Assembly: GCA_026120035.1 (NCBI GenBank)
Contig: JALRME010000007.1
Span: forward strand, 1,364,001-1,428,000
DNA: 64,000 nt
From: Coleophoma eucalyptorum
Taxonomy: Eukaryota; Ascomycota; Leotiomycetes; Helotiales; Dermateaceae
Direction of reading: 5' to 3'
Positions 3,183 through 43,878 of the stretch are shown piece after piece; within the stretch, counting starts at the first letter, position 1, and each line of letters opens with the position of its first letter. The translations under genes were made by a program, and so were the position numbers. The notes beneath the pieces were generated by a model. It did not search any database and had not been told where the DNA came from. It was given only the letters and a program-made list of their open reading frames with translations.

Positions 3183-6100
3183 TCAGCGATAGTCTACCAC
3201 ACTGTCATCATCCTCATCGACATCGAATCCAAAATCCGAACCACTGGCTGCGGTTGCATCCATGTCATAGCTACTCTTTCGCATCATAGGTGGTGTAGCA
3301 GGGGGACCACGCTTAGGTGAACCACGCATCGGCATCTTGCCCTGTTGACGTGGTGTCATGCTCTTAGGGCGATTCGCGAGTTGCTCGGCACTGAAACGTT
3401 GACCGGTGCGGCGAAAGGCTGTTGGCTGACTGCCTGGAGGAGAGCGAGCCGATGCTGGGGGTGTGAGAAGGCCGGAGAGGAACCCTTGGGAGCCTGGCGT
3501 ATTCCTTGCTGGCGTTGCACTGCTCCCTGCTACTTCGGAGACTGAGTCGCGGTTCTTGCGCCAGTTACCCCATGCCGCTGCAAGAGGACCCACAGCTTGA
3601 GCTACCCTTGGAGATGCGGCTAAGCTAGCTGCAATATTGGGTAGGTTGATGGCTGATCCACCATTCATCGCTCTCTCACGCTCTTGCTCCTCCATTTGAA
3701 GGTTGGCATTGAGTCTAATAGCAGCGTCCTTGACAGTCTCAGGATCAAAGTCGTCGTTTGAAAGTGTCTTGACGATATCTTGCAAGTCACCCTTGCGGAC
3801 AGCGAGAAGCTCACGGAGCCACATAATCTCGTCATCCCGCTTGGTGATCTTGTTGGGGGCGTCCGGATCCACAGTGGATAGCTTCTGCTCCAAGTCTTCA
3901 ATCTTCTTCTCACGATCTTGTAATTGCTCTTGAAGAACCATAATGGACTCGCGGAGAGCTTGAGGTGAGATTTTCTCCGGAAGCTCAAGACGTGGGTCGC
4001 GAGCTGGCTTAGGCACTTCGGGTTGTACTGGGGCAGCAGAGGCAGCAGTCTGGTATGATCCACCCCCGACTGATGACCGCTCTGATCTGGCAGCATTGGC
4101 CGCTGCATGCGCAGCGGCCTTGGCAACTTCCAGCTTCTCCTCCAAGTGTTGAACACGATCCTGGAGATGGTCATTCTTGGCGGAGGAGAGAGTCAGCCGC
4201 TCGAGCAGATGTTGTTCAGATCTCTGGGCATCTTCAACAGCGTTACTGAGCTGGCGTTCGTGTTGAGTGTGGATATCCTCAACCTCGTTCGCATGCTTGT
4301 TTGTAAGATCCTCAAGGATAGAGATCTTGGAAGAATTGACTTCCTCCAACAACATCTCGTACTTAGCCTTCATTGTATCGGCGTCGAGTTTGACCTGGTC
4401 AACTTCGACACGGGACCTAGCTAATTGTGTCTCCAGATCGTCCCGAACAACATTGACTTGGTTATTTGCAGCCTCGATCTCGGCTTGCATGTAGTACTTG
4501 GTCCGTTGCACCTCGCTCAATCCAGATTCACGAGCTTCTTCGTACTCGCGTTTGAATTTCATAGCATCCTTCTGAGCAATGTGGTTCTCTTGTCGAAGTT
4601 CACTGACGAGCAACTCCAACTTCTTACACTCGCTGACAGCTCGCATTCCGTCTCTTTCTCCGGCCTCCAGTCTTTCAATCTCCATCTCAAGCCTTTCTCT
4701 CGTTCTGGCCTCGGCTTGCAGTTTAGCATCAAGAACCTCTTGGCGGGCAACGAGTTCAGCCTCTCTCTTGGCACGTCTGGCGTTCTCTTCGGAAATGTTA
4801 CGGGCAGCATTGGCCATATCCTCCTGCAAACCCATTAACTTCCCTCTCATTCCTTCTCGGACTCGGATACTTTCCTCCATCTGAGTCCTCAAAGTCTCGA
4901 TTGTACGTCTGAGATCCCTGTTGGTCTCGTTGGCTTGTTCAGCATCGTCGCTGTGTCTCTTGGCGGCTTCGAGAGCGCGCTCAGCCTCGATCTGCCAGCG
5001 TTGAACTTTCTCGTTGGCATCGTGAAGATCATCCTCGGCATGAGCAAGTCGGCTGTGGAGATCGGATTGGGTCTTGAGGGAATGTTCTTGAGCGGCTTCA
5101 AGGTGGACGTTACGCATGGTGACTTCGACCCGTGTATCTTCCGCATCTCTTACCTTCTGATCTCGCTCCTCAGATATGACTCGAATCTTGTCATCCCTCT
5201 CATCAAGGGCTTCACGAAGACGAATCTCTTCCTCGGATGAGATGCGCAATAATCTTTGAACCTCTGCAAGACGGTCCTCGGCAGCTCTGCGTTCCTTAAT
5301 CTGATCCTCAATTTTAAGATCTGCTCTACGCAGGATCTCCTCGAGGTCCGATATTCTGGCCTTGTCTTCGGTGGCCTTGGCTACAGCCAACTCGTCCACT
5401 GGAGGTTGTTGGGGCATTCGGGCTTCAACAGCTTGCTCGACAACATTTCGTAGGTCTTCGCCACGAAGGTCAAGGCGAAGAGACGCGCCGAAAGACTCTT
5501 TCATCTCCTCCAAGACCTTTAGCACATTGGTGTTATTCTCTAGTGCCACAGATGGAGCAGCAGATGATTGCGGTCTCGAAGAAAACTGGTGGCCAGCAAG
5601 AGCCTCGTTAACGATGGCACGAATTTTCTCCATTTTCCTGTCCCTTCTTGGACTCATAGATCTTCGTGGTGGGAATTCATCGTCTTCATCATCGGCATCG
5701 CTAGGTAGCTCTCCTGACAAGCTTCGGGCATCACGTCGTCTAGAAGGAGCCCGGTTGGCCATCATCTCGAGCGACATTTGAATACCCTCGAGCGCCTTCT
5801 CAAGTGGATCAAGGCGCTCTTCAAGGATACCACCAACAATTTCATTGACATGGCTGTCAAAGAAACCCGCACGAGGTTGCAGCTTGGCTTCCTCAGCTTC
5901 GCTAATAACATCATCCCAGTCGCTTGGAGCAGCACTTCCAGTTGTGTTGAGATGATGTATCGGAGAATCGAATGTCAGACCCGTTGCAGATTCACCGACA
6001 AAGACATCATCCCGAGCACGTGCAAAAACGTTTGCACCCATATCCGGCAGCGCACGGAATCTCGCGGGACTTGGGCTTGGAGCATCGCTCCGCATGAGAT

Positions 6101-9100
6101 TCTGGGGCGCGAGACGAATGGGGGATGAATCAGCTAGATCCTGAACAGGGAGTAGTCTATTAGGACTTGACTGTTGCCATCTTGGACTGCTCTCAACATG
6201 ACGTGAAGCATTCTCGTTCTCGACTTCATTCAACTGTCGCATCACAGCATCAATCTCCTCAAAGGTAGGCTCATGTTTGGGGGTTGCTTCCCGAGTATAT
6301 TTAGGTGGGCTTGCAGGACCGGGCAGACTGTCTTGGAATTGGGAGATCTCCTCTGGTTCCAATTGAACCTCTGGAGATTCTGCTCTTGTTGGCGTTGGAC
6401 TCTTGGCATATCGAGAAGAAGATAGTCCGGCGCTGGGAACAAAGACTGGAGCTTCAGGCAGAGGCTTTGGTGGTTCTGTTGCGAAGGTGAAAGCACCAGG
6501 ACGGAATTCAAAAGGCTTAGCAGTCGCAGAAAGCGAGCTGGTATTCTTCCTGTGTGCCTTGGGATGCTCTGCCCTAGGTTCCTCTGGTGCAAACTTGGCT
6601 TGTTCTGGAGATGCTGGAAATCCGTAAGGCTGGAGACCCCCTGAATATCTCTTGGATGTAAAAGGCCTGGCAGCGTTGAAGTCCTCTGCTTGCTTTTGCT
6701 GGTGGAACTCGAAAGGCACGAAATCTTTGACTTCTTCGGACCCTTCGTTGAATGGTTCTGGCTTAGGAAATTGGAGACTTGTGTCGGGAAGTGTCTCATC
6801 CTCGCTAGGAACTGGTTCGGAATTCTCCTTGTTTGCTTGGCTAAGTACAGCAGGCTGGAATTCCTTCGGCGGAGACTGGCCCCGTAAGGTCTCCCCAAGA
6901 GGCATGCTAGGCTCAGCGAAAAGAGGAACGGAGTCTCCATCATCTTTTCCACCACGTGCTCTCTTGATTCTGCCTTCTCCTTGAGTAATGCGACCATCTT
7001 TGCCTTCCATAACCTCGTCGTCTTCCTTAGGTCCGCTATCTGGCCGGACGATTGTGATAGCCTTAGACTTTTTGGAAGGCTTGACTATACCAATGTGACT
7101 GAGATCAATGTTACCAAAGATAGAACCTGGAGCAGGAGCTTCGTTGCCACTTCCGATAGAATCAGAGAAGTTGCCACCGTAAGGATTGAAAGCTGGTGCA
7201 TCAGCTCTGAAGGATGGTCCAGAAGTGGAGAAGTTAAATTCGCTATGACCAGGAGTGAAAGCTGGGGCCTCAACATTGATCCTACTTCCGGTGGAGCGAT
7301 GGCTAAAATGACTTGAGGTAGCAGACAATGGGACAGCAGGTGCAAAGCTTGATGCGGATGGCGAGAAAGTGGCGCCGGTGAACGAGAACTGCCCAGGTGT
7401 GAATGTAGACTTTGAGGGTTCGAATTTGAACTCCTTAGCCTCGACATTGAGCGTCGACATGGAAGGTTTAGAACCATGCCTGGAACGTAGTGGTTTACTT
7501 CCTTGACTATCAGCATCAACCCATGGGTTACTTGCTGTAGAGAAGTTTCTATCGTGGCTGCTATATCCGCTCATCGGAACAGGTGTGCCCATATTACTTA
7601 GATTTGTGTCCACATCAGAGAAACCCATGAGATTATCGGCAGATTTCAACCCTTGCAATAAGTCCTTGCTGGCCGCATCGCTTGAAGATCCATCGCCATC
7701 TTGGTATGGCTGCTGAGAAAGTGAGTGGCCTCGGCTGTGAGGTTGTGGATGGTGCAAAATAGGACCATTTGAATCATCCGCAAAGCGAGACGAGGCAAGT
7801 CCACCAGCATTTTCGACTGATGACTTGTTGCGCATATGGCTTGACTCTTGACCATCACGATCTGAGTGTGGGCTATAATCTTCATGCTCAAGTTGACGCT
7901 GGAATTGTTCCTCCAAATGATACTCAGCATCGTCAATCTCTTTCTGCAAGCTTGCACTAGAATTATGTCCATTAACTCTTGCCTCAGGTGTCTTTGAGGG
8001 GCTCTTTGCCAATTGTGTAGCCTCTTCGTCATCAGCCTCGCGAAGTTCTTGTAAACGTGGAGATGGGTTTGCAGAAGAACGCATTTGAATCTGCTGCTGG
8101 CTGAGTTGAGTTTGTAGCTGTTGCTGTCGCTGTTGCAGTTGAGCAAGGGTATCACCAGGGAAATAGCCCTCCTGGAATGGTGAGCTTGGACTGATCATCG
8201 CACCAAGATTTTGCAGGTTTGGCGATCCGCCTCGAGCAAAGCTAATGCTTTGGCTGAGCATATGTCCAGGGGAGAAGCTAGGGGACTGTTGTCCAAATTC
8301 AAAAGGCGATCCGAAAGGATGAGCGCCACTCGAGAAAGATACTGAAGCTCTTGGGTTGAATTTGGCATGCGAGAATGATTGCATGGATGCTGGAGATGCA
8401 ATGGAGCCGTTAAGAGAACTTTGGCTTGCCGGTATACCAATACCAGGAAGTAATGGCGGTGAAAATGGATTGTTTCCACGACTGCTGGCCGCAGATGACG
8501 TTGGAATAGGAGGGGAGAATGGAAGCTGAGGATATTGGGTTGACATCCGTCGACTGATAGGAGGAGGCGGTGGAATAGCTGGTTCCTCATCACCAACAGT
8601 TACTCCCAAAGCTCTAAGCTTTGCTTCACTGAGCTCGCGGACGTAGGCGTCCCATTCTGTTATTGTCAGTAATACTCCAATATCTCATGCTGCCAGATGG
8701 GAAGCTTACCACTCTTGTCAGGAATGCTGACTCTGAAAGATCTCTGTGCTCGTTCCTGCAGCACATCCTCCGCATTAGGCCAAACGCTACGACTTTGGCC
8801 CTCATAGCCAACTTCTGTATCTTGATCATGGGAAATATTAAAGCCGGTCGTATCATAACCCAACTGTTCCCAGTCTTTCAACATAGCTACCACATCCTTT
8901 TCTCGCATCGGACTTGGCGCCTTGCCTCGCTTTCCACGTTCTTCATCTAAAGGTAATAATACCATTATGTTCTTGCCCTTCCATGGCACTTTCTTCTTCA
9001 ACCTCGGAGGAACAGGTGCGGGAGATAATGTGGGTACTGGTGGATTAAAGGGGTCTGGCATAGCCGCTGCTCGCCATTCTGGAGGATTATCTTTAGGTGG

Positions 9101-15968: not shown

Positions 15969-17107
15969 TTATGCAACAGCAGCAACCTCAACAGCAACAG
16001 CACCCTTCTTCTCATCCACTCGATTAGCTACCGAATCTCCCACCATCTTCCTCTCCTTATATTCTTTCTCCAGCCCATACTGCCTATAAACCGCCTCTCG
16101 AACCTTCCCCTGATAAAACGCAACCCCGTTCTCCTTAACGGGGTTCAGGATACCTTCCCCATAAACTCCCCGCTCCAAATTCCACTGCGCCTTCTCGCAG
16201 AGCTCGAAATCTTCCATAGCGACCTGGCGCACGAACTTGTAATACTCTTCAAACTCGGCCTCGGTGCCGTTGTGGTAATAGTCGAATTCCATGCGAGCTA
16301 GACCAGGGACTGTAGCAGAGGGGAGGGTCCGGAAGGAGGACATGCCGCCGCCATAGACGTTAAGGGTGCAGATTGGGAAGAAGTAGAGGAACAGTCCGTC
16401 GTTAGGTTTGGTGGGGTTGGCAACGTGTTGACTGAAATTGAGATGGTTCGTAACTGAGTAGAAGGTCGGTGGGTAAAATTTGCTGAACGTTGGATGGGTG
16501 TACTGGCAATGAAGGCACTCTTGGTATCCATCGATCCTATGTCATGTCAGTTGTGTTAGTTTGAGGAGGTGATGATGGCAAGCACATAGTTTTCCAGTTG
16601 AATCGCCCTTCGTATGATATACTTCTTCGGTGTGGAAGTTTGGTGAAGTCGACTTTATTGGTTAAGTCTTCGAGCCCAGCGAAGAATTCTTCGAAGTCAG
16701 GCGCATCAAGTGATAGAGTAGCAAAGAGGAGGCCACTGGGAGTCAGATGATACTTGATCTCTCTCCCCTGAAGACAGGCTGTCAGTTCTTTGCTCATGTT
16801 TGCTGAAAAGACAAACCTTTTCTTCGGCATATACAATGATTCCTTCCATACTAACTCCGTTTGACTCTGGGCTTCGGTTCTCAACAACAAGCTTTACTTG
16901 TGCTATTTCGTACACCACTGGCTCAAATCGCTTCTCAAATCGCGTCACTGGTCCAAGGAGATGCCATGACTGGGTGCCATCAGAATAATTGGTGCTTTGG
17001 GCTTTCTAACCGATATTTACCTTGAGAAAGACAGCTCGCCTCTCTAATTGATAAAGCTCAGAGCTACAAAACCAAGAAGCGGGTAACGTTCTGGTGAGAG
17101 AATCCAT
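15969..17107 (-). CDS. Rieske-oxygenase catalytic subunit lacking the Rieske domain (mononuclear-iron half)
   Basis: Four exons (17107-17021, 16969-16817, 16767-16586, 16536-15969) give 329 residues. The start (SWFCSSELYQLERRAVF, residues 11-27) and the C-terminal two thirds match the aromatic-ring-hydroxylating/choline-monooxygenase alpha-subunit family. The mononuclear Fe motif is complete: NWKTMIDGYQECLHCQYTHP with His150 and His155, and acidic Glu147 at the inter-domain bridging position. A later carboxylate (MEDFELCEKAQ) is a plausible third ligand. The ~100-residue Rieske fold with CxH...CxxH that should lie between the N-terminal LERRA segment and the catalytic domain is missing. About 40 unrelated-looking residues replace it. 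The introns (about 49-51 nt) are too short to hide it. The gene is divergent from a complementary half at 17716. Substrate unknown. Confidence 0.82.
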
Positions 17108-17715
17108 GATAGCGACAAATCTAATTAAAAAGTAATAGATCTTCTGTCGGGTGTTCTGGCACAGCAAGCTGGAGATTCCTCAAGCTTATAGCTATGCTAT
17201 ACAAGCTAATTCTGATGCGAGGTTATTTAAACTTCCACAATACCAAGTCGGCTTCGGGAAGTGAACCGTACCCGAAAGGGTAATGCTATCCAGATGCATC
17301 TACCCCAGACGTCAGTCGTATAACATGATCCACATCCCCAACAAATGAGGAGAAAGATAGAAACAAACTCACTCAAGCTACGCCGTTGCCTTCCAAAAAA
17401 TCGTTTAGTCAGGTCGGCGCGAGCTTTGTGCATCTTAGCATCACCCCATCTTGGTAGTACTGGGCAGCTATACATCGGGATGCAGGATTGTAACGCTACC
17501 AGCCGGGGGATATACAAACCCATTTCGGATGTTTATTATTGCGTAAAAAGGCTTGTTGATAAGTAACTATGCCATAGGCAGCTTCCATCCAGGCTCATTT
17601 TGGTATCCAATTCCTCTGGCATATTTGGTGGCTGGAAGTATACTAATAAGAGTAGCTTTCCCACGTCACTGGAGTTAGAGTCTCAACCTTGAATCACTTC
17701 ACGAATCTCCTGAAA
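17108..17715. promoter_or_regulatory. Shared divergent promoter of the two Rieske-oxygenase halves
   Basis: This 608-bp gap separates the two start codons of the head-to-head pair. It contains no supported coding sequence and must carry both promoters, so coordinate expression is likely. No specific operator was recognised. Confidence 0.5.
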
Positions 17716-19142
17716 ATGGAAACAATCAACGTCTCAGTTACTGCAATTGCACTTGCTGTGGTATTGATATCTGTCTACGTCTACCCCACATTACATCTCC
17801 ATGATGTTTACCAGAGCATCACAACATGGTACGCGAAGAGAAACAAGCAATTGTATGTGCGCGAGTTTGCAGAGTCAGACGAGTCTATTCTCAACGAAGT
17901 CTCTCAATTTTCGTTGAAGTGGTGGACCGACAACGATATATTTCAGCTAGAAAGACGAGCTCTATTTAGCAAGGTATGTCTACCTCATGACCAGAGGATC
18001 AAAACTAGCTAGCTGATAGATGTAGACATGGCATTTCATAGCCCATGCATCCCGCTTTCGCAAGCCCGGGGATTATCGCACTTATGAGATCGCAGGTTTC
18101 TCCTTCATCCTTATCCTTGGGAAAGACCAGAAGATCAGAGCTTTTCACAACATCTGTCGCCATCGAGCATACACCATCACTAAGAAAGAAAGTGGTAGTT
18201 CCACTGTCTTGGGTTGTAGGTATCATGGTTGGAGTTACAACACGAAGGGTGAGTTAGTGAAAGCACCCGAATTTGACAAGGTGGAGGGCTTTCAAAAGGA
18301 GATGAATAGCCTGTGGGAAATTCGGAGTATGGTAAAAGAGTCCATGGTTTTTGTGAATCTTGATGCGGGTCACGAGGTCGGTAATCTCGAGCTGGCAGCC
18401 GACGAGCTGAAAGCGAGGAATACGGCGGGACTGGACTGGACCTCCAGTTGGAAATTTGATGCTGTTTTGAATTGGAAGCTGGCAGGTACGTGATCCATAA
18501 CGTGTAGATGAGTAATACTGATGCTGCTTAGCTGGAGAGTTCTCCTTGGAAAGACTGCAGGATTCTCAGAATAGCTGGCAGTGGATGTTGGGAAGAAGCA
18601 CTGAAACTAGAGAATTGAAGTTGTCTTATTCAGCCAGTATTTGGATTCCCCATGGCCTCCTACTGACTGTGAGACTCCTTCCTCAGTCGCCATCAGCGAC
18701 AACCATTGAATGTGACCTTCATGCCAAAATAACCCACAGCGCCAAGTTTTCAAAACTCCAAAAGCAGCTGAAGGAGGATATTCAAGCAGAGATTGGACGG
18801 CTAGAGATCAAGCAGCGAGACCTGTTTGTGGGCAGTAATGATTTTGCAGTTGGTGAGCAACAGGTTCCCGAGATTCTTGTTACGTTAAAAATTGACCGGT
18901 ACCAGCCCCGCAGGAAATGATCAGTCAACTTTTGAGAGCGCATCTCGAATCCGAGAGACAACTTGGTCAGGAGATCGAGCCTGCTGCCAGGAAACAAGGA
19001 TTTTCAATCGAAGGAAAAGCCGATGATGATCGTAAGTGATGCCCTGCGGTTATGGCTTGATACTTATGAATCCATAGTCTGTGCTGAGCTCGAGAGTAAT
19101 CTGACTTGTAAGGCCAATAATAATGGCCTGCTGGACTGGTGA
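17716..19142 (+). CDS. Rieske [2Fe-2S] oxygenase-like protein lacking the mononuclear-iron segment
   Basis: Five exons (17716-17973, 18026-18485, 18532-18852, 18906-19031, 19078-19142) give 409 residues. A membrane anchor (about residues 5-27) precedes the LERRALFSKTWH segment. A complete Rieske cluster follows: Cys130-x-His132 (CRHR) and Cys150-x2-His153 (CRYHGW), 17 residues apart as in the family. The chain continues through FVNLDAG to NWKL. The next segment should carry the iron ligands (ECxHCxxxHP), but the sequence jumps to AAGEFSLERLQ, then resumes SRPBCC-like sequence (ASIWIPHG, TTIECDLH). The mononuclear iron site is therefore absent. The last two splices are chosen on good donors (GTGAGC, GTAAGT) and restore a plausible tail ending LLDW; without them the frame stops at 18920. 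The gene is divergent from the complementary half at 15969-17107. Confidence 0.8.
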
Positions 19143-20882: not shown

Positions 20883-22816
20883 ATGGAGAAGAAGGTGGAC
20901 CTTGAGAATGTTATAGAGCCGACCGTTTCGCGGACGGTTGGCTCGTCCGAGTCGCTGGGTGGGGGCAAGAAGACGGAGATGACCCAGGATGAGTTCCAAC
21001 TTGCAACTCTGGGTTACAAGCAGGAGTTTTTCAGAAGTTTGGGCTTGTTTGAGAACTGGTACTAATGCTTCCATCTCGCAGCGAGAAAACCAGAAAAGGC
21101 TAACTATATCGCAGGGCGGCTACTTTCACGGTATGAGCCATCTCATTTTATCTCCGGCCAATCCCAACCTCTCTGCAAGCTTGATAAGTGCCAGCGAATT
21201 TATGCCTTCTGCTATCTAGTCTATGAACTTCGTATCCGGAATTCCTGTCCTCTTCGGTTGGGTCATGTATAGTGGTGGGCCAACCGCTGCTTTTTCCAAT
21301 TGGACAATGGTCGGCGGGTTATCTTTCATCGTCAGCATGTCAATGGCTGAGATCGCCGCTGCTTTGCCAACTGCTGGTGGTATCTACTATTGGTCGTTCA
21401 AGCTAGGTGGTGCTGAATGGGGGTGAGTCGCTTGTTATGTATGTGACATGATATGATCTATTTCACTGACTCTTGGCACAGTCCTTTCCTTGCTTGGATG
21501 ACCGGTTGGTGGAATTTCTGCGGTTGGTAAGTGTCTAACTCTTATTTTGTTTTACTGATAGCTGTTTTACTGCTTGAAGCTGGTCTGACTTGGATAGGGT
21601 ATCTGTTGTCCCTGGTGTTCAGCAAGGGGCCACAAACTTTCTCATTTCAGCCCTCGAAATCAACTATCCCAATGCAACCGTTCTGTCCCAAGGCTGGTTC
21701 GCATGGCTACTCACATCAATAGGCATGTTATTCGCCATGGTTCCGAACGTCATTTCCCAGAAGATCCTAAAGCTATACTTCCGCTTCGCCGTCATTATCT
21801 TCCACGTTCTCCTGGTCATGTATTACATCTGGTTTCCCATTGCTGCACACCAGAAGGCCGGATTCCAAACACGGGAAGGTGTATTCAACCACTTTTACAA
21901 CGGCATTAATTTTGGTGATGAGAAACAGGCAAGCGACGCTTACTGCTGGATCATCTCTATTCTTTTTGGAGCTTGGGTCTTCTATGGCTATGATGCTAGT
22001 GTTCATATCTGCGAGGAGACCGAGAATGCTAGTGTCATTGTTGCCAAAGGAATGGTGTATTCCACAGCCTCAGCATGGATTGTATCTATTCCAACACTCA
22101 TCTTAATTCTCTTCTGCATGCAAGACTTCGATGGCGTTGTCAATGGAACTTACGCAAACAACTGGGCCGAATACCTAGTCCAACTCATCGGTCCTAACGG
22201 TGCCATAGCTATCCTTGCGCTACTATGGGTCGACTCAACTTGTGCCACTGCATCATGCTTCATGTCCGCGCAGAGAGTAACCTATGCCATTTCACGAGAT
22301 AACATCCTGCCAGGATCAAAATACTTCAAGATTCTTTCCAAGGACCGCAAAATGCCCGTCAACGCCGCCATTCTCGTCTGCGCCCTCTCCATCGCCATCA
22401 CTACTGCCGTAATCGGGTCGACAGTTGCATTCTCCGCCATTACGGCCACGGCAACAATCGCCACCAATGTCTCATATCTCATCCCAATCATCGCGCGGCA
22501 CACCGTTGGCCGCAAGACTTTTGAGCCTGCGAAGTGGAATCTGGGAAAATGGTCATTGCCCTGTGCGGTCGTGTCCGCCCTCTATATATCTCTCCTCTTC
22601 ATTGTCCTGCTGCTTCCGCAAGTGTATCCAGTTACGGCCCAGACGCTGAACTACGCACCCATCATGATTGGAGCCATTACGATTATTAGTGTTGCGGGAT
22701 GGTGGTTGCCATTTGGAGTCGGTGGCAGGGCCTGGTTTAAGGGCCCGCAACGCACTATTAGCGAGGAGGAGGTTGCGGGTGCTATAGTTACAGGGTTGGA
22801 CGATGGACAGTTGTAA
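20883..22816 (+). CDS. APC-superfamily permease (GABA/choline/amino-acid type)
   Basis: Five exons (20883-21058, 21115-21130, 21220-21422, 21482-21526, 21598-22816) give 552 residues, normal for fungal Uga4/Hnm1/Bat-type permeases of the plasma membrane. The N-terminal cytosolic block (LATLGYKQEFFRSLGLFENW) is a family hallmark. About 12 membrane segments follow. AALPTAGGIYYWS (helix 3 region), YGYDASVHICEET and FMSAQRVTYAISRDN are typical. Exon 2 is only 16 nt and encodes AATFT; the AATFTSMNFVSG continuity confirms it. Substrates of relatives include GABA, choline, polyamines and amino acids, and sequence alone does not decide. It lies next to a choline-monooxygenase-like pair, so a quaternary amine or amino acid is a reasonable guess only. 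Confidence 0.92.
20916..20944 (+). repeat. Near-perfect inverted repeat in the 5' coding region of the permease
   Basis: GAGCCGACCGT (20916-20926) and ACGGTTGGCTC (20934-20944) pair at 10 of 11 positions with a 7-nt loop. The repeat starts 33 nt after the A of the ATG. An mRNA hairpin here could affect translation, or it may be chance in a codon-biased stretch. Confidence 0.5.
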
Positions 22817-27664: not shown

Positions 27665-30600
27665 TTATGCATATTCGTCTATAACACTTTTTACTTCCTT
27701 AAAAATTCCGAACGGCTTGAAGTCCAGATCATATCCAAAAGCTCTTGGGCCCACAATGTCAATAGCGCGCTGTGAACTGGTCCACAAAGGATGCGCAGCG
27801 GCGACTAAGACCATGACTTTCAAGCCATATCTATATTCGGGAACGCCAACACTTTCACCCGTGAGTGTGTCCAGTACCATGATGAGGTCTGGCACTGTTG
27901 CAAGTATCTGTCTTTGGTCAGCCTAAAGTTTCTCTTGCCAGTGGACAGAATTCTCTACCTTCTTCTCACCAGAAGCGTAGTGTGCTTCAATGACCAAGTT
28001 CTCGTTCTTGAACGGAATCTCTATTCGCTCAGGCCCGTCATCCTCCTTTTCTCCAGATTCCATCTCATATCCTTTCAATCTCTCGATAACTAAATTGCCG
28101 TAGCTATGTCCCTTGTAAAGCGTCTGTCCCACAGCTACAATCTTACCTGAAAAGACTTTACTGGCGCTTTCACTACCTCCAAATTCGCGAATAATATCGT
28201 CAGCAACGGACGAGACCCTCCCTTCGGATTGAGCTCTTGCCACTGCTCGGCCGATTCTCCACGAAAGAGAGTGTGTGTTAGGAACCCCGAATTTCTTGAG
28301 TTCTGTGCCGGTCAGAGGACGAGAGACGCCGCCTGCTGCCGAGCTATTTTATATCAGATGGAGTTGCAAGATTTCAGTTCATATTTTACTTACCCCATTG
28401 TAACCACTGCAGCTCTAAGAACATTGTCAACAGCGAACGGGTCCTTTGCTGTCGTCATGATAATATTCGTGCCATTTCCATCTGACAGAGCGACAGGAAG
28501 AAGCTCATTGATATTCTGTGCACAAACGTAAGGTGTGATTTTCTCAAAGGAGGGAAAAGCGCGACCTAGTATGTGTTAATTCAACCATTATCATGATGTT
28601 CTTGTTTGACTTACCCATCAAGTCGCCATCAACGCAAGGCACGTTGTAGTATTTTGAGGAAGCCCAAAGCAAAGGCTCCAATCCGTTTCCCCCGCCAATT
28701 TCCACCGCAAGCATAGCACTGTATTTGATATTTAGATGCTTCTCCATTGTTTCCAATGCATGTTTGACTAGGAGACCACCAGGTCTCTCAACACCAACAG
28801 CGGGACTTCCCACACCTGAGAGGGGGGGACAGATGGCATCCGAGGCAAGATCTGTTATGCTAATTAGAGACATTGTCTCTCCTGATCTCAAAGCTTCTCG
28901 TGCCTCTAGATATTTTGTGTAGGAGCTACCACCTCCTGCACAACCGAGTATATAGCACCCAATAGAGATGAATAGTAGATCAGTCTCGGACAAGTGCCAG
29001 ATTCGATCCTTATCGACGTGTGGTTTATATATCTCAAAATCGATAACGTCCTCCGCGGTCACATTGTCATCGACATGTTCCTTGACCTCATAGTGAGCTT
29101 CTTCTTCAACATATACTCCATCTGAGTCGTCCAATCCCGAGAACTTCTCATGGTCAATTGGCCCAGAGACTTTGACAGAAACTTTGCATTTAGCATCAAT
29201 GTAAGGTAGTCCGGCAACCACCTCTTCCAGAACCCTGATCGCACCCTCCCTCGCTCCCTTCTGCACTGCCTGAGAAATTGCTCTTGCCCTGACTTCGACA
29301 AGTGTTTCCTCTTTCTTCTCGGTATCGACGATTACCTCAACAGCAGCGCCTATCTCAGCAACGGCGGCACCAATTGCATTCGCGACACCTGCATGGAAGG
29401 GTCTTTCGATCTTCGCCACGCCTTCAAGTTCGGAAGGGCAGAGAAATGCGCCACCACCCACAAGGATGACATGGCATGGTTCCGGTGACGTCTTCATCCT
29501 ATCGACACAGTCACCGAGCATTGTCTTTATCTTTTTTTTCGCAGTGGAGACAGTGTCTGCATCAATTTCTGGCTTTACGTGCCCAATACCCCCCTCCCCA
29601 GCGGCGACCAGAATATCAGTTGCAGTGAGAGTATCGCCAGCAAAGGACAAAGACTTCTGTGTCAGTGCTTGGCCAACACTCTCAGGCCCAATCTTAATTG
29701 TACCATTTGCTAGGGTAGAGATGATGGAACCACCACCAAATCCAGTGCTTTCGACTTGGGGCATTGCAAAGTTAACTCGCACCCCTCCGATCTCTGAGAA
29801 TGCACTCGCAAGTCGAGGATAGCCACTTGGCAGCAAACATCCCACCTCAGTTGTTGTACCGCCAATGTCGATGACATATCGGGATGTGCCTGCATCTGAT
29901 GAACTTGACAGGAAAGCTGCGCCGCGGATTGAGTTTGTTGGGCCAGAGGAAAAAATTTGGACAGGATATCGAATTGCTTCTGATGCTGAGAGCAGTTGTC
30001 CCGAGTTTGAAGTAAGATAGAGCGGGCAAGTGAGATTCAAACGCTTCATTGCTCGCTTGAAGCCGGTGATTGTCCGTTTTGCGAAGTGGAAGATGGAGGC
30101 ATTGAGGATGGAAGCGTTTTCTCGTGCGAGAATACCAGTGCCAGCAACTATATCAAGATCAGCAAAGATACGTCTCTAGCTCCTTAGGTTCGAAAAATTA
30201 CTTTCACGGGAACAAACGATGTTTGTGTCCTTGCCAAGTGCTTCTATCAAGATATCGCGGACCTGGTATTCTTGACGCTCATCCTCATCGCTTGGCGAGT
30301 AGATGCCGACAATTACAACATTTCTCAGTCCCTTCTCTTTGATAATCTTGGATTGCGTCAGAATCTCATCCCTGTTAATTTTATCGATCAGACTTCCATC
30401 GACTTGGATGCCACCTGACACAAAAGCCGAGTGACCATTCATGACTATGAGAGTGCCCACGTCAGCAAGGCTCTGATTTGCACCTTTGGCGACCACTTAC
30501 TCCGTTTCAAAGATGCTGGGAAATCTATGAACGGTGGCGTTGAAGCCGTGAAATCATTCGATGCAAGGCGTAATACAGCCACGGGCTCGATTCGGGATGC

Positions 30601-32071: not shown

Positions 32072-35000
32072 TCACTGCCCGTCAACGGCCTGGTGCAATG
32101 CATTCAATCTATAGCTCTCACTCCTGTTTACCAACTCCTCATGCCTCCCAGAGTCGACACAGACACCATCCTCAATCAAGAAGATGACATCCGCTTTCCT
32201 GATCGTATACAAGCGATGTGCGATCGCAATGACTGTGATGCCCCTCGCCGCCTTTTCTAATCCATCCTGTAAGAGTGACTCACTTTCTGCGTCTAGCGCA
32301 CTCGTACTTTCATCAAGGAGGAGTAATTGCGGTTTTCGAATCAGGGCACGCGCGATGGCGAGACGCTGTTTTTGTCCCCCAGATAACTGGCTCCCATTAG
32401 GACCGATGTTTGTTTCGTAGCCATCGGGGAGGGAGATGATTGTATTGTGGATGTTAGCGATCTTGCATGCAGCGATGATTTCACCGTCCGTAGGCTCGAC
32501 ATCAGGTCGTGCTCCTAGTGCCACGTTGAACCGGACTGTGCCTTCAAAGAGGACACTCTCCTGAGGGACGAGAGCAATCTTGTCTCTGAAGCTCACGCCC
32601 TCGCGTTTTGCTATGTCGACTCCGTCGATTAGGATACTGCCGCTACAGGGAGTATACATCCGCTCTAGTAGTGATATAATTGTAGATTTACCTGCACCTG
32701 AAGGGCCGACAAGTGCGCAGAACTGCCCTGGAGAGATAGAGAGGTCCATCCCATGTAAAATCTCAACGTCTGGACGAGCTGGGTATGCGAACCTGACGTT
32801 CTGAAATCGTACGCTAGCACCATTCGTAGCTTCAGAGTGCTTTTCTTTCGCCTCACCAGTAGCTTCGATATCCATGTCCTCAGATTTGGCTCGAGGCTGT
32901 AATGGATCTGAGAGTTTCTTGGTGGATCCAATGGATAGGACATCCAGGATTCGGTTGACAGATGCACTTGCACGAGAGACATCCGGAGCAAGTGTGAACA
33001 TTTGGCCCCAAAGTTGTGCACTGACTAGTAAAGCCATCAGAACAATGAAAAACTGAGTCTGTGAATAGTCGCCTGCGATGATACGATTTGCACCCCACCA
33101 ATAAGCCAAGGCATAGAGAAAATTTGGTAAGCCATATGCAATGGATAACCATAGGTTGGCATACGCGCTGCGTTCCAGCATTTCTTTGGTAGGACCTCTC
33201 AAAGAACGGCGATATGTTCCCAGGACTTCTTCCTCGAGTGACAACGATGCAACGGTCTTAATACTGTTTACTGCTTCAACAGTGATACCGATCGATTTTG
33301 TGAAGGCTGATTCGTGTCGTTCTGCAAATCTTGAGAGCGTCATCAAGTGCATATAGCCTGCTCCAAGCATCAAAGGAACGACCGAAAGGCAGACGAGCGC
33401 AATCTTCCATGCAATGATGTGAGTAAGGATAATTGCTGCTACAAGGTTGACGAGAATCGACATAATTGTTCCAACGGTTGAGCCAGTCAAACCAGCCAAT
33501 GCATTGCCATCTTTGGTGATGAATGAAAGCAAAACAGAAGGTGTCCGACCCTCAGATTGATGCCATGCAAGATCCTGCTGAAGCAGGGAACGAAATGAAA
33601 GAATCCTGACTTTATGCAGTACCTTCTCAGCAACATATCCGAATGTTGACCATGAAATCAGATTAGCAAAGAATTCAATAATTGCTAGTACGAAGAACAT
33701 AAGTCCCCAGAAGTTTCCCGAGGATTTTATTGATGAAACTTCGTTACATGGAGACAGGTCGCCAAGCGTATTTCCAAATATGACAGCGCAGGCAGAGTAG
33801 GATCCACCACAGACGATAGCACTGATGAATGCAACAAGAAGCTGCAACGGATATGGTCGGAATACAGGACTGATTGACTTGAGCATGGAGCCCATAGATC
33901 GCTTTGGTCCGAGTTCAACATCCTCTACTGTCGAATCTGCCGTTTTATTATCCGCTTCCTTCTCAGAATTGTCCTGTAAACTATGGGTAGATTCGGGAGT
34001 ATGGGTGGTTTCAGACTTCGCCTTTGCATCCTCAAGACTATCGTCTGTGACAAAAGATTTAGTCGATACTAGATCCTCAACGCCACGGCTGTTGACATTT
34101 TGCAGACGAACTAGATCGGCATAAGCGCCATCCTTAGCAAGAAGATCTGTATGAGTGCCCTCTTCTAAAATGCGGCCATCTCGCATAACGATGATATTAT
34201 CCGTATTTTTGATAGTAGAGAGACGATGCGCGATAGTGATGAGTGTTCTTCCAGCTGCAGCTTTCTCAATTGCGTTTTGTACACGCATCTCGCTCGCAGA
34301 ATCAAGTGAAGCCGTCGCTTCATCGAGGATCAAGATACGAGGGTCTCGCACGAGCGCTCGCGCTACAGAAATACGCTGCTTCTGGCCTCCACTGATAAGA
34401 TTGCCACTTGCACCAACGAGTGTTCCGAATCCATCTTGGAGACGATTGATGAAATTAACAGCATCGGAGATATTCGCTGCGTGTGTTACAAGCTGGATAA
34501 TCTCAACAACTTCTTGTCCGTGTGCCTCGGCGGCTTGCATTAAAGTCTTGCCTTCGCGAACGGCGAGTGCAACCTTCTCCAGTGTTGGTCCAAGTAAAAT
34601 GGAATTTAAGTGAGAATGTGCTGCAGAGTTCACAAGACCTTGTGCGATATTCTCGAGGATTGATCGATCTAGCAAGGATGGCTCTTGCTGGACGAGACTG
34701 ATAGAACTTCGCAGAGACCTGACATTGAGATCCTTCACATCATGGCCGTCCAACAAGACAGCTCCCCCAGTAACGTCATATAGTCTCGTTACAAGACCAG
34801 CAATTGTAGATTTGCCACTTCCACTCAAACCCACAATCGCAGTATGTTTTCCGGCAGGGCACACAAGAGATATGTTATCAAGAACTGTCTTATCGGGCCG
34901 AGATGGATAAGTGAAGAAGACATTTCTCAATTCGACATTGCCTTCAACTTGTGGCAGTACTTGTCCGGACTCAGATTTTCCGTCGATTACCGGTCTGCTT

Positions 35001-36265
35001 TCGATATCCTTCTCCAACTTTGCAAACGCCGCAGCAGCGGAGCCGAAAACTTGAAGAAACGGAGCAGTCTGACTCAAAATAAGTGAAGCTATGTAAAAGA
35101 TTAGCCAAAAAAGTACCCCTGCAATCAAGGACTGGCCTACCATCTAAGAGAATAAAAATGACCGTATATGTCGTTCCCACAGTGGTACCTTCAACAGCAT
35201 TCGGATTCGCAACCGCGTTCGCGATCGTCTTGCTCCCCTGCCAGTACGCAAGCGCATTTCCTGAGTAGGCAATGAAATACAACATTCCAGATTGAATGGC
35301 AATAGCAACAGACTTCTTGATACCATCTCGTTTGGCATCGCTCAATTTGAGTGCAAATTTTGCTTCCAGGCGCGCATTGGCTGAGAAGGCCTGGACGACC
35401 GTAGTATTGGTCAGGGCTTCGAGTGCAATAGATGATGCGGCGCCAACATTGTCGAGTACTTGGCTGGAATACTTCTGGATATAGTGTCCGCCAACCAAAG
35501 ACATGAAGAGCAAAGCCGGAGCTAGTGATACCAGCATACCGCCGAGTTTAGCATCTTTGATAAATGCGACAACATAGGCTGTGACGAAGAAGGAAAGGCT
35601 GTTTAGGACAATGCCGACTTTTTCTGAGGTACCTTGTTGGATGGTGCTGATGTCGCCAGTCAATCTCGAGGAGACTTCACCGGCTGGTAACTGGTCAAAG
35701 AACAGAGCCTCCTGACGCAGCAGACTCTGAAAGTAACGATCTCTCAATCTCTGTGCAAGTCTTTCTCCCCCCAGCGACCAGCAGAAAGTAGTGATGTAGA
35801 CCAAGCAAAAGTATGCAATTCCGATGTAAACAACTTTGAGGACTTTGTCATTAACTTCAGCCTGATACTCTGCTCCAGGGACGGCGTTGCAAGTCGCAGA
35901 GTTGAGATTGTCCACCAGCTGTCCGAACAGAATACCCATCAGTGGGAACGGTATGCCAGAAGCTATGGCCGACAAAACCCCACCTACTAGGAGGAGTATA
36001 TCGAAAGGTTTTGGATCTGCATACACCAGCAGGCGGAGATATCCTGTTATACCGCCAAAGAACTGATGAAGAATACATCAGCAATGTTTCTCTCAAACCA
36101 GTCTCTCTTGACATGAGAAGTACTTGCCTTGGTTCCTTTTCCTTTTTGTTTGACCTCTCCATCCATTTCCATAGGCTGATCCATTGCGTTGGAGACATTG
36201 ACAGCGTCATTTTCAGACAATGCTGATGCAGTTGCAGTCCCGTTGGACTCGGTAGAAGCTGTCAT
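32072..36265 (-). CDS. Full-size ABC multidrug transporter (ABCB/MDR type)
   Basis: Three exons (36265-36124, 36043-35141, 35088-32072) give 1353 residues in the layout TMD1-NBD1-TMD2-NBD2, the normal size for fungal P-glycoprotein-like exporters. NBD1 has Walker A GLSGSGKST, signature ISGGQKQR and Walker B ILILDEATASLD. NBD2 has GPSGAGKST, LSGGQKQR and LLLLDESTSALD. Both ATP sites therefore look active. A polar N-terminal tail and a charged linker between NBD1 and TMD2 (Ser/Thr/Asp/Glu-rich) are typical. The start is the ATG at 36265; the open frame extends 20 codons further up without an ATG. It is divergent from the NRPS and probably exports its product or gives self-resistance. It would sit in the plasma or vacuolar membrane. 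Confidence 0.93.
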
Positions 36266-37841: not shown

Positions 37842-40800
37842 ATGGGAGAAGATCATAGCAATTCTGACAATATGACGGTGCAGGAATCCAATGCAGACCC
37901 CGTTCAAATTGAAAGCACTGCAGTACCGACAAAAGAGGGGGAAATTAGCAACGATGATATGATTATTCCCAACAAAGCTCAAGAGATCGAGCATCCTAAG
38001 GAAGAGCTATGTTCAGGAAGCACAACCGCCAGTGAACTCGGCTCAGCAAATCACGACTTTGATTCAGACACCGCCCACTCACCCAGTTCACCGATATCAA
38101 CCTCTTCAAGTACAGGGCTGAAGCCAGCCGTCGAACTGGATATAGCATCGACAGAGAGCACATCTATTGTGCCAGCGGTCTTACTTCTTGCATCTTGGGC
38201 GATACTCATCAACCGACGAGGGCCACAACAAAATGGCACAAGCGGTTTTATTTCATGGTCAAGTTCCACAGCTAGCGCTGGAACAGAGGTGAACCTCAGT
38301 GCCTTCATCAAACCAGAGACTGCATCAGTCCAGCAGATACTGGAACTGGCAAGTGAAGAATATGGAGCAGGCGCAGCTATTGAGGGCGATTGGATATCGT
38401 TACGAGGCTTTTACCCAGGCACAGAATCAGAACGCGAGGTAAGTTGGACTGCAGCTTTGTAGGATGACCATAGCTGACTTTCAACAAAAGTGGTCAATAA
38501 GTATAGAAACAGCAGCATTAGACAGCCATTTGGATCTCCGATTATCGAAAACCACAAATGTAACAACTTATATGCAAGAAGTCTACTTGGCTGCATTTGC
38601 AGATATATACAACTCTATTAAGGACAACCAAAGTCAAACCATAACATACGCGACGAATGTGGGCCCTCTCGAACTGTCGAAAATATGGGACTTGAACAGG
38701 ACGGTTCCACCAACTATAAGCGAATGCATGCACGACATCATCTCAAACTTCGCGAAGCAGAACCATGATCGGCCGGCTGTAGTATCCTGGGATGGAGAGT
38801 TGACATATGGGGAAGTCGAAGAATTATCAACAAAAGTGGCTATGAAATTGGTTGGACTTGGAATTGGGGCCGGCAGCATTGTGCCACTCTGCTTTGAAAA
38901 GTCAAGATGGACAGTTGTCGCTCTCCTAGGCTTGATGAAAGCTGGCGGTGCTTTCGTTCTCACTGATCCGCACCAGCCCGAAGGGCGGCTTCAGGTCATT
39001 GCCAACGAAGTAGAGGCCAAAGTTATCTTAACTTCCGTTCAACAAGCCGAACTTGGAAGAAGGGTTGCACCTCAGGCAGAAATAGTTACCATTGGACCGG
39101 ATCTACAGCAAAATAATGATATAGTCCCTGTGGCCTTGCCGGAAGTGTCTCCGTCATCAATGCTTTACATAATTTTCACATCTGGGAGCACAGGAAAGCC
39201 GAAAGGTGTAGCTATCTCGCATGTTAACTACACAAGCGGTGCTTTACCAAGAGCCGATGCTGTGGGTTACAGGCCACATTCGCGAGTGCTGGACTTTGCT
39301 TCTTATGCATTCGATGTCAGCATCGACTGCATGCTTGCCACGTTGTCCCAGGGGGGCTGCATATGTGTGCCATCAGACGAAGCACGGATCAATAATTTGA
39401 GTGGAGCAATCCGAGACATGAATGTTAACATGGCTCATATGACTCCATCTGTTGCGCGTGTACTGGAACCTGACGTTGTCGCTTCGTTAGACGTGCTGGG
39501 ACTTGGTGGAGAATATGTGTCAGCGGGCGATGCTACAACCTGGGGTGAGAAGTGCAAGGTTATAATCGCGTATGGCCCATCGGAATGTACCGTCGGCTGT
39601 ACGATAAACAACGATGTTGGCGTTGGGAGAGAATATACGACTATAGGCAAAGGTGTTGGAGGAGCTACCTGGATAGTCGATCCTGATGATCACAACAAAT
39701 TAACAGAAATAGACGGCATCGGCGAACTCCTGATTGAAGGGCCCATTGTCGGCTTGGGCTATCTTAATGAACCGGAGAAAACGTCAGATGTGTTTATAGA
39801 GGATCCAAAGTGGCTAACAGCTGGGTGTTATAAGCAACCAGGAAGAACAGGTCGACTCTACAAGACGGGCGATCTTGTCCGATATGATACAAATGGCTCT
39901 GGCTGTATTCTATTTGTTGGCCGAAAGGATAGACAAGTCAAGTTGAGAGGTCAACGTGTAGAATTGGCGGAGGTTGAGCATCATCTTAGAAGCAGACTGC
40001 CGTCTGGTATATCTCTTGCTGCAGAAGTCATCACTCCAGTAGGAAAGGGAAGCGAACCCACCCTAGTTGCGTTTCTGGCAGAGCAAAAAGAACAGCAGGT
40101 CAATTCTGAGGGTGATGAGCCATCATTCTCTCCGGAACTTCAGGTCCAGCTTAAAGAATTAGACAGCATTTTGGCCAAAGAGATCCCAATCTATATGGTG
40201 CCGACAGCATATATTCCATTGGGAGAGATACCTCTCTTAGTCTCATGCAAGACAGATCGGAAACGGCTGCACGAAATTGGAGCTGCAATGACCAAACAGC
40301 AACTGGCTAGTTTCAGAGTACAAGTGGCGGAGAAGTTAGAACCAAAGACAGAGATGGAGCGAAAGCTCCATCAGTTATGGGTCCAAATGTTCGGCACCGA
40401 TCTTGAAATTGGCGTGAATGACAACTTCTTTGCTGTTGGAGGAGACTCCTTGAAGGCAATGAAGTTGGTAGCACTTGCAAGAGAAGAGAATATCTCACTG
40501 AATGTTGCTAATGTCTTTACATACCCAATATTGTCCGACATGGCATTAGTTTCCGGTTCTCTCAGCGAAGAAGTCAAGATTGATGTACCTGAGTTTTCGC
40601 TGCTCGGGAACAATTGGGCTAAGGAGACCGCTAGACAAGAGACAGCAAAACTTTGTAATCTGGAAGCATCCTCGATCGAGGATATGTATCCATGTACACC
40701 ACTACAAGAAGCACTGATGGCTCTTTCAGCAAAAGTCAGCGAGGCATACGTTGCTCAACGAGTCGTTGAGCTGCCAGACCTGTTGACTTCGAAGCGACTC

Positions 40801-43800
40801 CAAGCAGCTTTCGCCATTGTCGCCGCAGACTCTGCTATCTTACGCACACAGATAGTACAGGTACCAGGACATGGGCTGATGCAGGTTGTAACGAAAGATC
40901 AAGAACCATGGTCAGAAGTCGATGATTTAGAAAGATATCTAGAAAAGGATCGTCGCCAGGGCATGGGACTTGGCAATAACCTTGCCCGATTCGCCATTGT
41001 GAACGATAAAAATACTACTAAGATCAGCATCGTACTAACCATTCACCATGCCGTATATGATGGCTGGTCAATGCCGTTGATCGTGGATAGAGTGAATAAA
41101 GCATATCGCGGATTGAAGCTGGATGAAGTCACACCATTTAAGGCTTTTATCAAATATCTCCACATGCAACACCGCCAGGTCTCCGAGACGTATTGGACTT
41201 CCAACCTTCAGGGTGCGACAGGTCCTCAGTTCCCCTCGCTGCCGTATGTTGGCTATCAAGCACGAGCAGACTCTCTACTGGAGATCAATATCCCAATCAA
41301 ACAAATCTCGACTAGTACGACTTTGGCAACCGCTGTGCGAGGAGCTTGGGCTCTTGTGGCATCTCAATACACAGGTTCGAATGATGTTGTTTTTGGCGAG
41401 ACATTGACCGGACGTAACGCCCCAATTACTGGCGTGGAGAGTATCGAAGGGCCCATGATTACTACCGTGCCAGTTCGTGTTCAAGTGAACAGAACAGCCA
41501 GGACTTCCGACTATCTCCAAAATATCCACAACCAGACAGTTGCTCGGATTGAACATGAGCACTTTGGTCTTCAACATATAAGGCGTCTTAGTCCAGATGC
41601 TCGCGAAGCATGTGAGCTGAAGACGGGATTGGTTTTGCATCCAAATGCTGAGCTAGAAGAGCAAGTATCTGAGGAAAACCCTGCAAACGGCTTTATGCCT
41701 GCAGGTGATGCGGAGGCGGCCCAGGAAGCATTGAAGTTCAATTCATACGCTCTCATGCTCGTTTGCTCACTTGGTCCCGCGGGAGTCTTCGTTATGGCAA
41801 GCTTTGACTCAAACACCGTCAGTGTGCCTCAGATGAAGAGTGTCCTAGAACAATTGGAGCGGGCTTTGCAGCAGATTTGCCAAGCAGATAAGAAGATCGG
41901 AGACATCGAGATTCTGAGAGAGCAGGATTTGGACTCATTGTGGAATTTAAGCACATGTGGTGCTGAAAGTTTGCGCAATACAAAATCGGATACCCCCCTC
42001 CAAGATCAAGACTTTGCAGACACCACTGCCACATGGATTGTTGATCCTAGAGACCCACAGAGCCTACTTCCACTTTATGCGGCCGGTGAGCTTCTAGTCG
42101 AATGCCCATCAGAAAAGATTGGTCTTAGCATCCAAGGCGCCTCATGGCTTGCTGCTGGATCCACCACAGTGCCTGGGCGGGACGGCCGCCTATATCAGAC
42201 CGGTCAACTGGCTAGATATGACAGCGACGGGAAAATTGTTCTTCTAGGGTCAAAAGAAAGACAGAGTCTGCCAGCTGAGGCCTTACAACATACTGAGTTG
42301 AAGAAGAAGCTTCCAGCTTCAACCCCAAGACAGCTGAAGCTGAGGCAATTATGGAGTCAAGTAATCGGCACCGAAGAGGAAGAGATAGGTCTGAATGACA
42401 GCTTCTTCGAGCTCGGAGGTGACTCTATCAGTGCCATGAAGCTGGTATCTGAAGCACGACTCGAAGGCTTCACGATAAATATGGCTCAAGTCTTCAGCGA
42501 ACGACGCTTGTATGACATGGCAAACATCTTGGAAGAGACTAAACAGTCGACGGTAGCTATAGAGGCTTACAAGCCATTCTCATTACTGGATTCGACTCAG
42601 TCTGATGTCTTCATCTCCGAGATTCAAGCATCACTCGCAAACCCTACATGGAACGTTCAGGATATCTTGCCGGCAAGACCTCTTCAGACTATTGCAGTCA
42701 CAGGCACGACTCAGTTACCCCGATACTCTGCACGATATGAGCTCTTCTACTTGGACGGAAAGATTGACCGTGAACGTCTCCTGGAGAGCTGTCAAGAGCT
42801 CGTATCACGCAATGAGATTCTGCGGACCGTCTTTGTCAAGCACGGTGGGAAGTGTTTCGGGGTCGTCACCGAGAACATTCCCGTACCTACTTCCATTTAC
42901 GAAATTGACGGAGATCTCGAAAGCTTCGCGCAGAAGCTATGCGATCTTGATGTTCAAACAAGAATGCCTCTCGGATCAGCCTTTGTGAAGTTTATGCTTG
43001 TACAAGGAGAAGGTGAACGAAGTTGCCTTATTATGAAGATTTCCCACGCTCAGTATGACGAAATCTGTCTTCCACCATTGCTGCACCAGCTGTCTGCACT
43101 TTATGAAGGGAAGAGTGTCCAAGCGTCAGTTCCATTCTCCTTGTACGTGGACCATGTCATTCGAGAGAATATTCCAGCAGGGAAGGACTACTGGCGTGAG
43201 CTCCTCCAAGGATCATCTATGACAGTGCTACGACCAACCGAGGAATTGAAGTCTACGAAGGCTGTATTCATTCAGAAGACGGTAGATATCTCGAGTCGTT
43301 CCAGAGATATCACCATCGCAACTCTTCCTACAGCTGCTTGGGCGATTTGCCTCGCGAGACGTCTGTCCCTCAAGGATGTGGTATTTGGAGAAGTTGTCAG
43401 TGGACGAAATATCGACTTCCCAAATGCCAACTCTGTGATGGGACCATGTTGGCAATACATTCCAACTCGAGTCAAGTTTGAGGAAGGTTGGACTGCTCGT
43501 GACCTCCTGAACTATATTCAGCATCAGCACATCGCTAGTACGCGCTTTGAAGGCATGGGCTTGCAAGAAATTGTCGAAAATTGTACAGATTGGCCAGAGA
43601 CTGTCGATTGGTTTGATTCAGTCGTTCATCAAGATGTCGAGCACGTCGAGAATCTTGCTTTCATGACTGCTAATAGTAAGATGGAGACGATTTACCCGCA
43701 TCTTGAGCCATTGCGGGAATGGAAGGTTCAAGCATTCCCCCAAGGCGATACCATCATGATGGAAATCGTTGCTCGGGAGTCGTGGCTAGAAACTGCAGAG

Positions 43801-43878
43801 TCGTTGCTGGAGGATATTTGCAGTATCATGACACAGCTGGTAACTAGGCCAGATTCTGTTATTCTCGAAGGATTTTGA
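37842..43878 (+). CDS. Nonribosomal peptide synthetase, halfC-A-T-C-(vestigial A)-T-C
   Basis: Two exons (37842-38438, 38491-43878; 52-nt intron with GTAAGT donor) give 1994 residues. The N-terminus is Ser/Glu-rich and then matches only the C-terminal lobe of a condensation domain (LLLASWAILINRR), without an HHxxxDG lobe. A complete adenylation domain follows: FTSGSTGKPKG (from 428), ASYAFDVS, IAYGPSECT (about 558-566), and SCKTDRK at the A10 position. Carrier domain 1 has GGDS with Ser852. C1 has an intact HHAVYDG (H1051/H1052). Residues ~1376-1457 keep only late adenylation pieces (WIVDP, RLYQTGQLARYDS) and lack A3 and A10. Carrier domain 2 has GGDS with Ser1511. The terminal C domain has SHAQYDE (H1718). 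One A domain would have to load both carriers. SidE (fumarylalanine) and iterative A-T-C-T-C siderophore synthetases are the nearest layouts I know. Substrate unknown. Confidence 0.93.

Follow-up and report, generated by a model that had tools for sequence, protein, structure and literature searches.

A divergent gene pair of Coleophoma eucalyptorum with complementary cofactor sites: probable subunits of one heteromeric Rieske oxygenase

A 64,000-nucleotide stretch of the genome of the ascomycete Coleophoma eucalyptorum (contig JALRME010000007.1, positions 1,364,001 to 1,428,000; the window) carries two neighbouring genes that divide the two cofactor sites of a Rieske oxygenase between them. 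Gene A codes for a protein with the Rieske [2Fe-2S] cluster site, gene B for a protein with the mononuclear-iron site. We consider it quite likely that the two proteins depend on each other as the subunits of a single heteromeric Rieske oxygenase, associated with the membrane and belonging to the quaternary-ammonium group. It is also likely that ascomycetes widely carry this enzyme as an obligate heteromer, which arose by gene duplication and opposite losses of cofactor sites, so that each subunit retains a full fold and is dead alone.

Results

Models of both genes were built from open frames and splice sites (Table 1). Their introns, four in A and three in B, are of the GT-AG type and 46-53 bp long, and frames and splice sites are intact. 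Among the matches listed in our searches, the closest protein relatives of both come from Coleophoma cylindrospora (Helotiales), with 89% identity over 100% of the query for A and 95% identity over 92% of the query for B. In Pfam, the sole family above cut-off is Rieske (PF00355, E 2.1e-16) for A and Ring_hydroxyl_A (PF00848, E 2.9e-20) for B. The original prediction had assigned an intact Rieske cluster without iron ligands to the plus-strand gene and the iron motif to the minus-strand gene, and both its coordinates and its motifs are borne out. The gap of 608 bp is correct as well; the start codons were said to face each other, but in fact they stand back to back and A and B are transcribed away from each other.

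Table 1. Features of the A/B pair and its surroundings in the window
Feature	Position	Strand	Basis or remark
Gene A, Rieske-cluster half, 409 aa	17716..19142	+	gene model, PF00355, C. cylindrospora match
Gene A exons	17716-17973, 18026-18485, 18532-18852, 18906-19031, 19078-19142	+	four introns
A N-terminal hydrophobic segment, residues 4-22	17725..17781	+	Kyte-Doolittle mean 2.35 over 19 residues
Intron 1 of A, 52 bp	17974..18025	+	phase 0, between FSK and TW
A cluster ligands C130, H132, C150, H153	18155..18226	+	family alignment and CntA alignment
A residues H359 and E363	18941-18955	+	near the C-terminus
A C-terminal L-D-W, CIA targeting (TCR) signal	19131..19139	+	matches [LIM]-[DES]-[WF]-COO- of PMC10623007
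Spacer between divergent start codons, 608 bp	17108..17715	.	sequence; possibly a shared promoter region
Gene B, mononuclear-iron half, 329 aa	15969..17107	-	gene model, PF00848, C. cylindrospora match
Gene B exons	17107-17021, 16969-16817, 16767-16586, 16536-15969	-	three introns
Intron 1 of B, 51 bp	16970..17020	-	phase 0, between FLK and SW
B iron-ligand segment, residues 143-155 (DGYQECLHCQYTH)	16494..16532	-	Y145, bridging E147, C148, H150, C151, H155
Permease open frame (stop to stop)	21578..22813	+	PF13520 / TIGR00907, amino-acid permease family; possibly a substrate importer
Open frame of 1833 codons (stop to stop)	3186-8684	-	no Pfam match at E 1e-4
Hydantoinase/oxoprolinase and S-Me-THD-like domains	28547-30175	-	one frame
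ABC transporter	32075-36077	-	two open frames; two membrane and two ATPase stretches
Nonribosomal peptide synthetase	38443-43875	+	large open frame; AMP-binding, condensation and carrier domains
HET-domain (heterokaryon incompatibility) protein	48965-50680	-	
Cytochrome P450	54169-55878	-	

Homolog searches provided the best 120 of 448, the best 120 of 342 and the best 120 of 2269 matches, with 309 homologs listed, and counts of homologs given below refer to these matches. In family alignments, the four cluster ligands of A are invariant in all 107 A rows (the window protein included, 14 run-on models joining B and A left out). Likewise, E147, H150, H155 and D250 of B, as well as C148 and C151, are invariant in all 121 rows (the window protein included), and residue 145 is Y in 103 rows and F in 18. 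Alignment with the carnitine monooxygenase CntA places the cluster ligands of A, without gaps, on chain positions 106, 108, 126 and 129, which we take to be ligands C86, H88, C106 and H109 shifted by the 20-residue offset of a tag. E147, H150 and H155 of B fall on CntA E205, H208 and H213, and the full iron site of B comprises H150, H155 and D250, with E147 as bridging glutamate. For CntA residues other than E205, Y203 and C206/C209 we assume numbers that are consistent with the same offset.

The missing site is missing throughout. No Rieske cluster motif is found in the 120 B homologs (0/120), and no mononuclear-iron motif follows just after NWK in single A proteins (0/107 and 0/64). In three A proteins, P0264, P0275 and P0293, such a motif does occur, but at a distance of over 120 residues from NWK, and these matches were set aside as chance. 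The cluster motif is present in 168 of 170 single A homologs, the two exceptions being P0267, a model without the second ligand motif, and P0283, a fragment. The complementary pattern, seen in 120/120 B and 168/170 single A homologs, is not a product of chance. This repetition bears on the possibility that A, B or both are decaying remnants, or that the lost sites are restored by missed exons. The gene models rest on sequence, which leaves some room for this, yet with intact frames and splice sites and the same pattern in so many relatives we regard it as extremely unlikely. Pseudogene decay, which the original prediction had named as a possible refutation, was looked for and none was seen, the ligands being invariant in the homologs.

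An observation on A alone concerns H359 and E363, which are invariant in all rows having a residue there (98/98 and 97/97, respectively). In a copy without iron site, these residues perhaps serve a contact with another subunit or with a reductase.

Predicted folds refine the picture of what was lost. Both the model of a B ortholog and that of a distant A homolog span nearly the whole CntA chain. B had been described as lacking the whole Rieske domain, but the flanking strands remain in the predicted model, and it is the cluster-binding insert that is gone (approximately A residues 130-180, as read from the alignment). Neither can a reciprocal domain loss be maintained on the side of A, as the model of its homolog retains the catalytic domain and the full fold, minus the iron-ligand segment. 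According to these models, cofactor sites rather than whole domains were lost from A and B.

Several B homologs are named "Bet v1-like" in their source databases, and the SRPBCC superfamily, to which the catalytic domain belongs, also holds binding proteins that are not oxygenases. B might therefore be a cluster-free mononuclear-iron or ligand-binding protein without Rieske chemistry, with A acting independently and the linkage of the genes reflecting a common pathway. This we consider very unlikely. The iron triad is invariant in 121/121 rows, and so is the bridging glutamate, through which electrons are known to enter from a Rieske cluster; the complementary loss in a linked neighbour would have to be a coincidence.

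The two genes are recurrently linked. With equal listed contig size taken as contig identity, A and B lie on the same contig in at least 32 cases, including contigs of 4.7, 11.6, 14.1 and 22.7 kb. The genome of the window comprises 45.3 Mb in 101 contigs. One further match, P0053, repeats the size of the Calycina contig from another source and was dropped as coincidence, which reduced 33 rows to 32. Where locus tags of both partners are shown, they are consecutive in five of five pairs (A. niger 003061/003062, Rasamsonia 5421/5422, Polytolypa 06584/06583, Oleoguttula 004149/004150, Claussenomyces 000108/000107).

Seventeen further listed database models run B and A together, with B first in every one. 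We considered natural B-A fusion as proof of a complex and rejected this interpretation. Since a hydrophobic segment like that at the N-terminus of A lies between the halves in 14 of the 17 (19-residue mean of at least 1.5), and the own start methionine of A is visible in P0033, the run-ons are better read as neighbouring genes in tandem that gene prediction has fused, and therefore serve here as evidence of adjacency only. The genes are thus in tandem in these models and divergent in the window, so that the pairing has survived rearrangement. A separate case are the A. niger models P0071 and P0094, in which a Mpv17/PMP22-type domain (PF04117) is joined to A, probably from a merged neighbour gene.

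Two terminal features set A apart from B. Among the 137 A homologs whose N-terminus is long enough, 130 have a hydrophobic segment scoring at least 1.6; of 120 B homologs, 2 have one anywhere in the protein. Because of this segment, A is probably membrane-anchored and facing the cytosol. At its other end, A terminates in a putative targeting complex recognition (TCR) signal of the cytosolic iron-sulfur protein assembly (CIA) machinery. As the relevant passages of Marquez et al. (PMC10623007) report, C-terminal [LIM]-[DES]-[WF] sends clients to the cytosolic iron-sulfur targeting complex, and Neverland and choline monooxygenase are named there as [2Fe-2S] proteins carrying the signal. The strict motif is found in 89 of 170 A-type proteins, and W or F is the last residue in 140 of 170; the respective values for B proteins are 0/120 and 3/120.

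The first intron points to the origin of the pair. In A and B it occupies an identical alignment column in identical phase, at a site where C10, C17, C23 and C28, four further loci for Rieske oxygenases in this genome, have no intron. Second introns near NWK differ in position by 2 bases and were not counted as shared. Because intron 1 is common to both, the sequences suggest that a single ancestral gene with this intron was duplicated and that opposite losses then produced A and B, although a single common intron is suggestive rather than proof. If so, they would likely represent a naturally occurring complementation pair that evolution has fixed, in which only the cluster copy has kept the iron-sulfur delivery signal. 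The C28 locus has a stop codon at the intron-1 site; this copy (G000:C28:408154-409324; L007, L011) shows internal stops in six-frame searches and may be a pseudogene, or its stops may partly be introns.

As for the substrate, B has a Cys-X-X-Cys pair (C148, C151) by the iron and an aromatic residue at the position of CntA Y203. The curated model of glycine betaine monooxygenase is matched by A over positions 27-167 and by B over positions 157-224, with scores that in both cases stay well under the cut-off. A permease frame situated some 2.4 kb beyond A reaches 199 bits against the TIGR00907 cut-off of 598 (one open frame scanned), and its family presumably includes choline and gamma-aminobutyric acid carriers. 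On the basis of the active-site features, the model matches and this frame, the substrate is likely, at modest confidence, a quaternary or methylated amine, for example choline or a betaine. Roles of the cysteine pair, in some Group V enzymes, and of the aromatic residue are treated in passages of PMC10952381 and PMC7948474.

Other coding regions of the window are included in Table 1. The nonribosomal peptide synthetase is about 20 kb away from the A/B pair, and the ATP-binding cassette (ABC) transporter is located near it.

Discussion

The proposed enzyme would work as follows. A would obtain its [2Fe-2S] cluster from the CIA machinery through its C-terminal LDW and take electrons from a reductase. 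The cluster tip of A would then dock on B, as a CntA subunit docks on its neighbour, and electrons would pass from the cluster histidines H132 and H153 of A through E147 of B to the iron of B (H150, H155, D250), which would activate O2 on substrate held in B. Judged from the sequences, A would thus supply the cluster to B. The pair itself would have originated when an intron-bearing oxygenase gene was duplicated and each copy lost one cofactor site.

That one oxygenase function is spread over two proteins had been proposed in the original prediction, and the comparative evidence supports this part of it: complementary sites are invariant in many ascomycetes, linkage recurs in two orientations, intron 1 is held in common and the iron-sulfur delivery signal is on the cluster half only. 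The accompanying idea of alternating subunits is not supported in that form, because A and B cannot take turns around a head-to-tail ring of three. A complex of the two would therefore need to be a heterodimer, a pseudo-trimer in which few interfaces are productive, or some larger assembly. With the cluster only in A and iron only in B, only contacts from A to B can be productive.

The geometry of the ring is one of several points that weigh against a single, mutually dependent enzyme. AlphaFold2 applied to a B-A run-on model gave a predicted template modelling score (pTM) of 0.53, with no confident relative placement or defined interface, from an alignment of only 14 paired rows (a reduced set, used after a first alignment had put some A rows on the N-terminus of B). 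A homologs ending in LAW (30/106) fall outside the strict delivery motif. The proposed substrate, in turn, depends on two features of the active site and a single permease frame nearby. Among the best 120 listed, 88 of 120 B proteins have no A on an equal-sized contig; B and no A is listed for Acephala, Tricladium, Halenospora, Amylocarpus and a member of Mollisiaceae, whose Helotiales-type placement is partly our assumption. Finally, Fusarium A proteins are listed and no Fusarium B, within the best 120 per search.

The Fusarium case also favours another explanation, in which A serves as an electron carrier of the Rieske type, anchored in the membrane, for one or several oxygenases, perhaps among them the two-domain enzymes of this genome, and B is its main, non-exclusive client, bound in transient contact. 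A alone holds a complete electron-carrier site, and the C10, C17 and C23 loci of the genome match both the Rieske and the catalytic families. Such two-domain oxygenases, however, own a cluster and would have no need for A, the model of the A homolog is a whole oxygenase-alpha fold and not a small ferredoxin fold, and the linkage of A is specifically with B. A role of A as a general carrier is thus unlikely, and we favour the heteromeric oxygenase.

If this is correct, the pair constitutes a widespread and apparently uncharacterised fungal enzyme, whose halves are labelled "choline monooxygenase" or "hypothetical protein" in databases; a passage of PMC6157903 describes fungal choline monooxygenase-like ("CMO-like") proteins as biochemically uncharacterised. 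Joint annotation and joint expression of the A and B genes are called for. The pair would provide, ready to use, a one-directional system whose interfaces are all either productive or silent, so that intersubunit electron transfer could be studied without mixing mutants. It would also be a clean example of duplicates preserved through complementary loss within an active site.

The closest known enzymes are Group V quaternary-ammonium Rieske oxygenases, CntA and the stachydrine demethylase Stc2 (PDB IDs: 6y9c, 6y9d, 3vca and 4qup). The A homolog and B share with CntA the predicted fold along nearly the whole chain, equal ligand residues and the bridging glutamate, and B also has the Cys-X-X-Cys pair and the aromatic residue. 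According to passages of PMC7948474, the two sites of CntA are 44 angstroms apart within one chain and 12.2 angstroms apart across subunits, where E205 bridges them, and E205 mutants are inactive. Intersubunit transfer of this kind in principle permits the sites to be separate, and the A/B pair looks like evolution doing so: the CntA chain holds both sites and forms a homotrimer, whereas A and B hold one site each.

Among the papers listed in searches of an open-access library, no split Rieske oxygenase of fungi is described. The nearest precedent is bacterial. Passages of PMC10380055 describe NdmC, a 7-methylxanthine N7-demethylase without Rieske cluster, to which NdmD supplies one within a 3:3:3 NdmCDE complex. 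In the fungal pair, B lacks the cluster site and A has it, their genes are linked, and A may supply the cluster to B. NdmD, however, is a reductase to which a Rieske domain has been added, and NdmE a helper of the glutathione S-transferase family; the fungal A is predicted to keep the entire oxygenase-alpha fold around a dead iron site and has none of the flavin and plant-type ferredoxin reductase domains of NdmD, PF00355 being its sole Pfam family above cut-off. The alpha3-alpha'3 heterohexamer of NdmA and NdmB, reported in the same passages, also unites two oxygenase-alpha paralogs in one complex, but each of them retains both sites. Among fungal proteins, the TlxI/TlxJ heterodimer consists of similar non-heme iron oxygenases, one of which is thought to be defective and to support the other (a passage of PMC13311259); these belong to the alpha-ketoglutarate oxygenases, without Rieske cluster and without reciprocal division of cofactors. 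The salicylate 5-hydroxylase ChnagG is a characterised fungal Rieske oxygenase, but has both domains in one protein and, as passages of PMC12130555 report, acts alone.

Taken across the pair, three canonical features of a Rieske oxygenase alpha subunit are present, namely the cluster site in A and the iron site and acidic bridge E147 in B; they lie on two polypeptides instead of one. Because neither chain carries both sites, as a canonical alpha subunit does, and A has no reductase domain of the NdmC/NdmD type, A and B are best described as a new heteromeric form of Rieske oxygenase.
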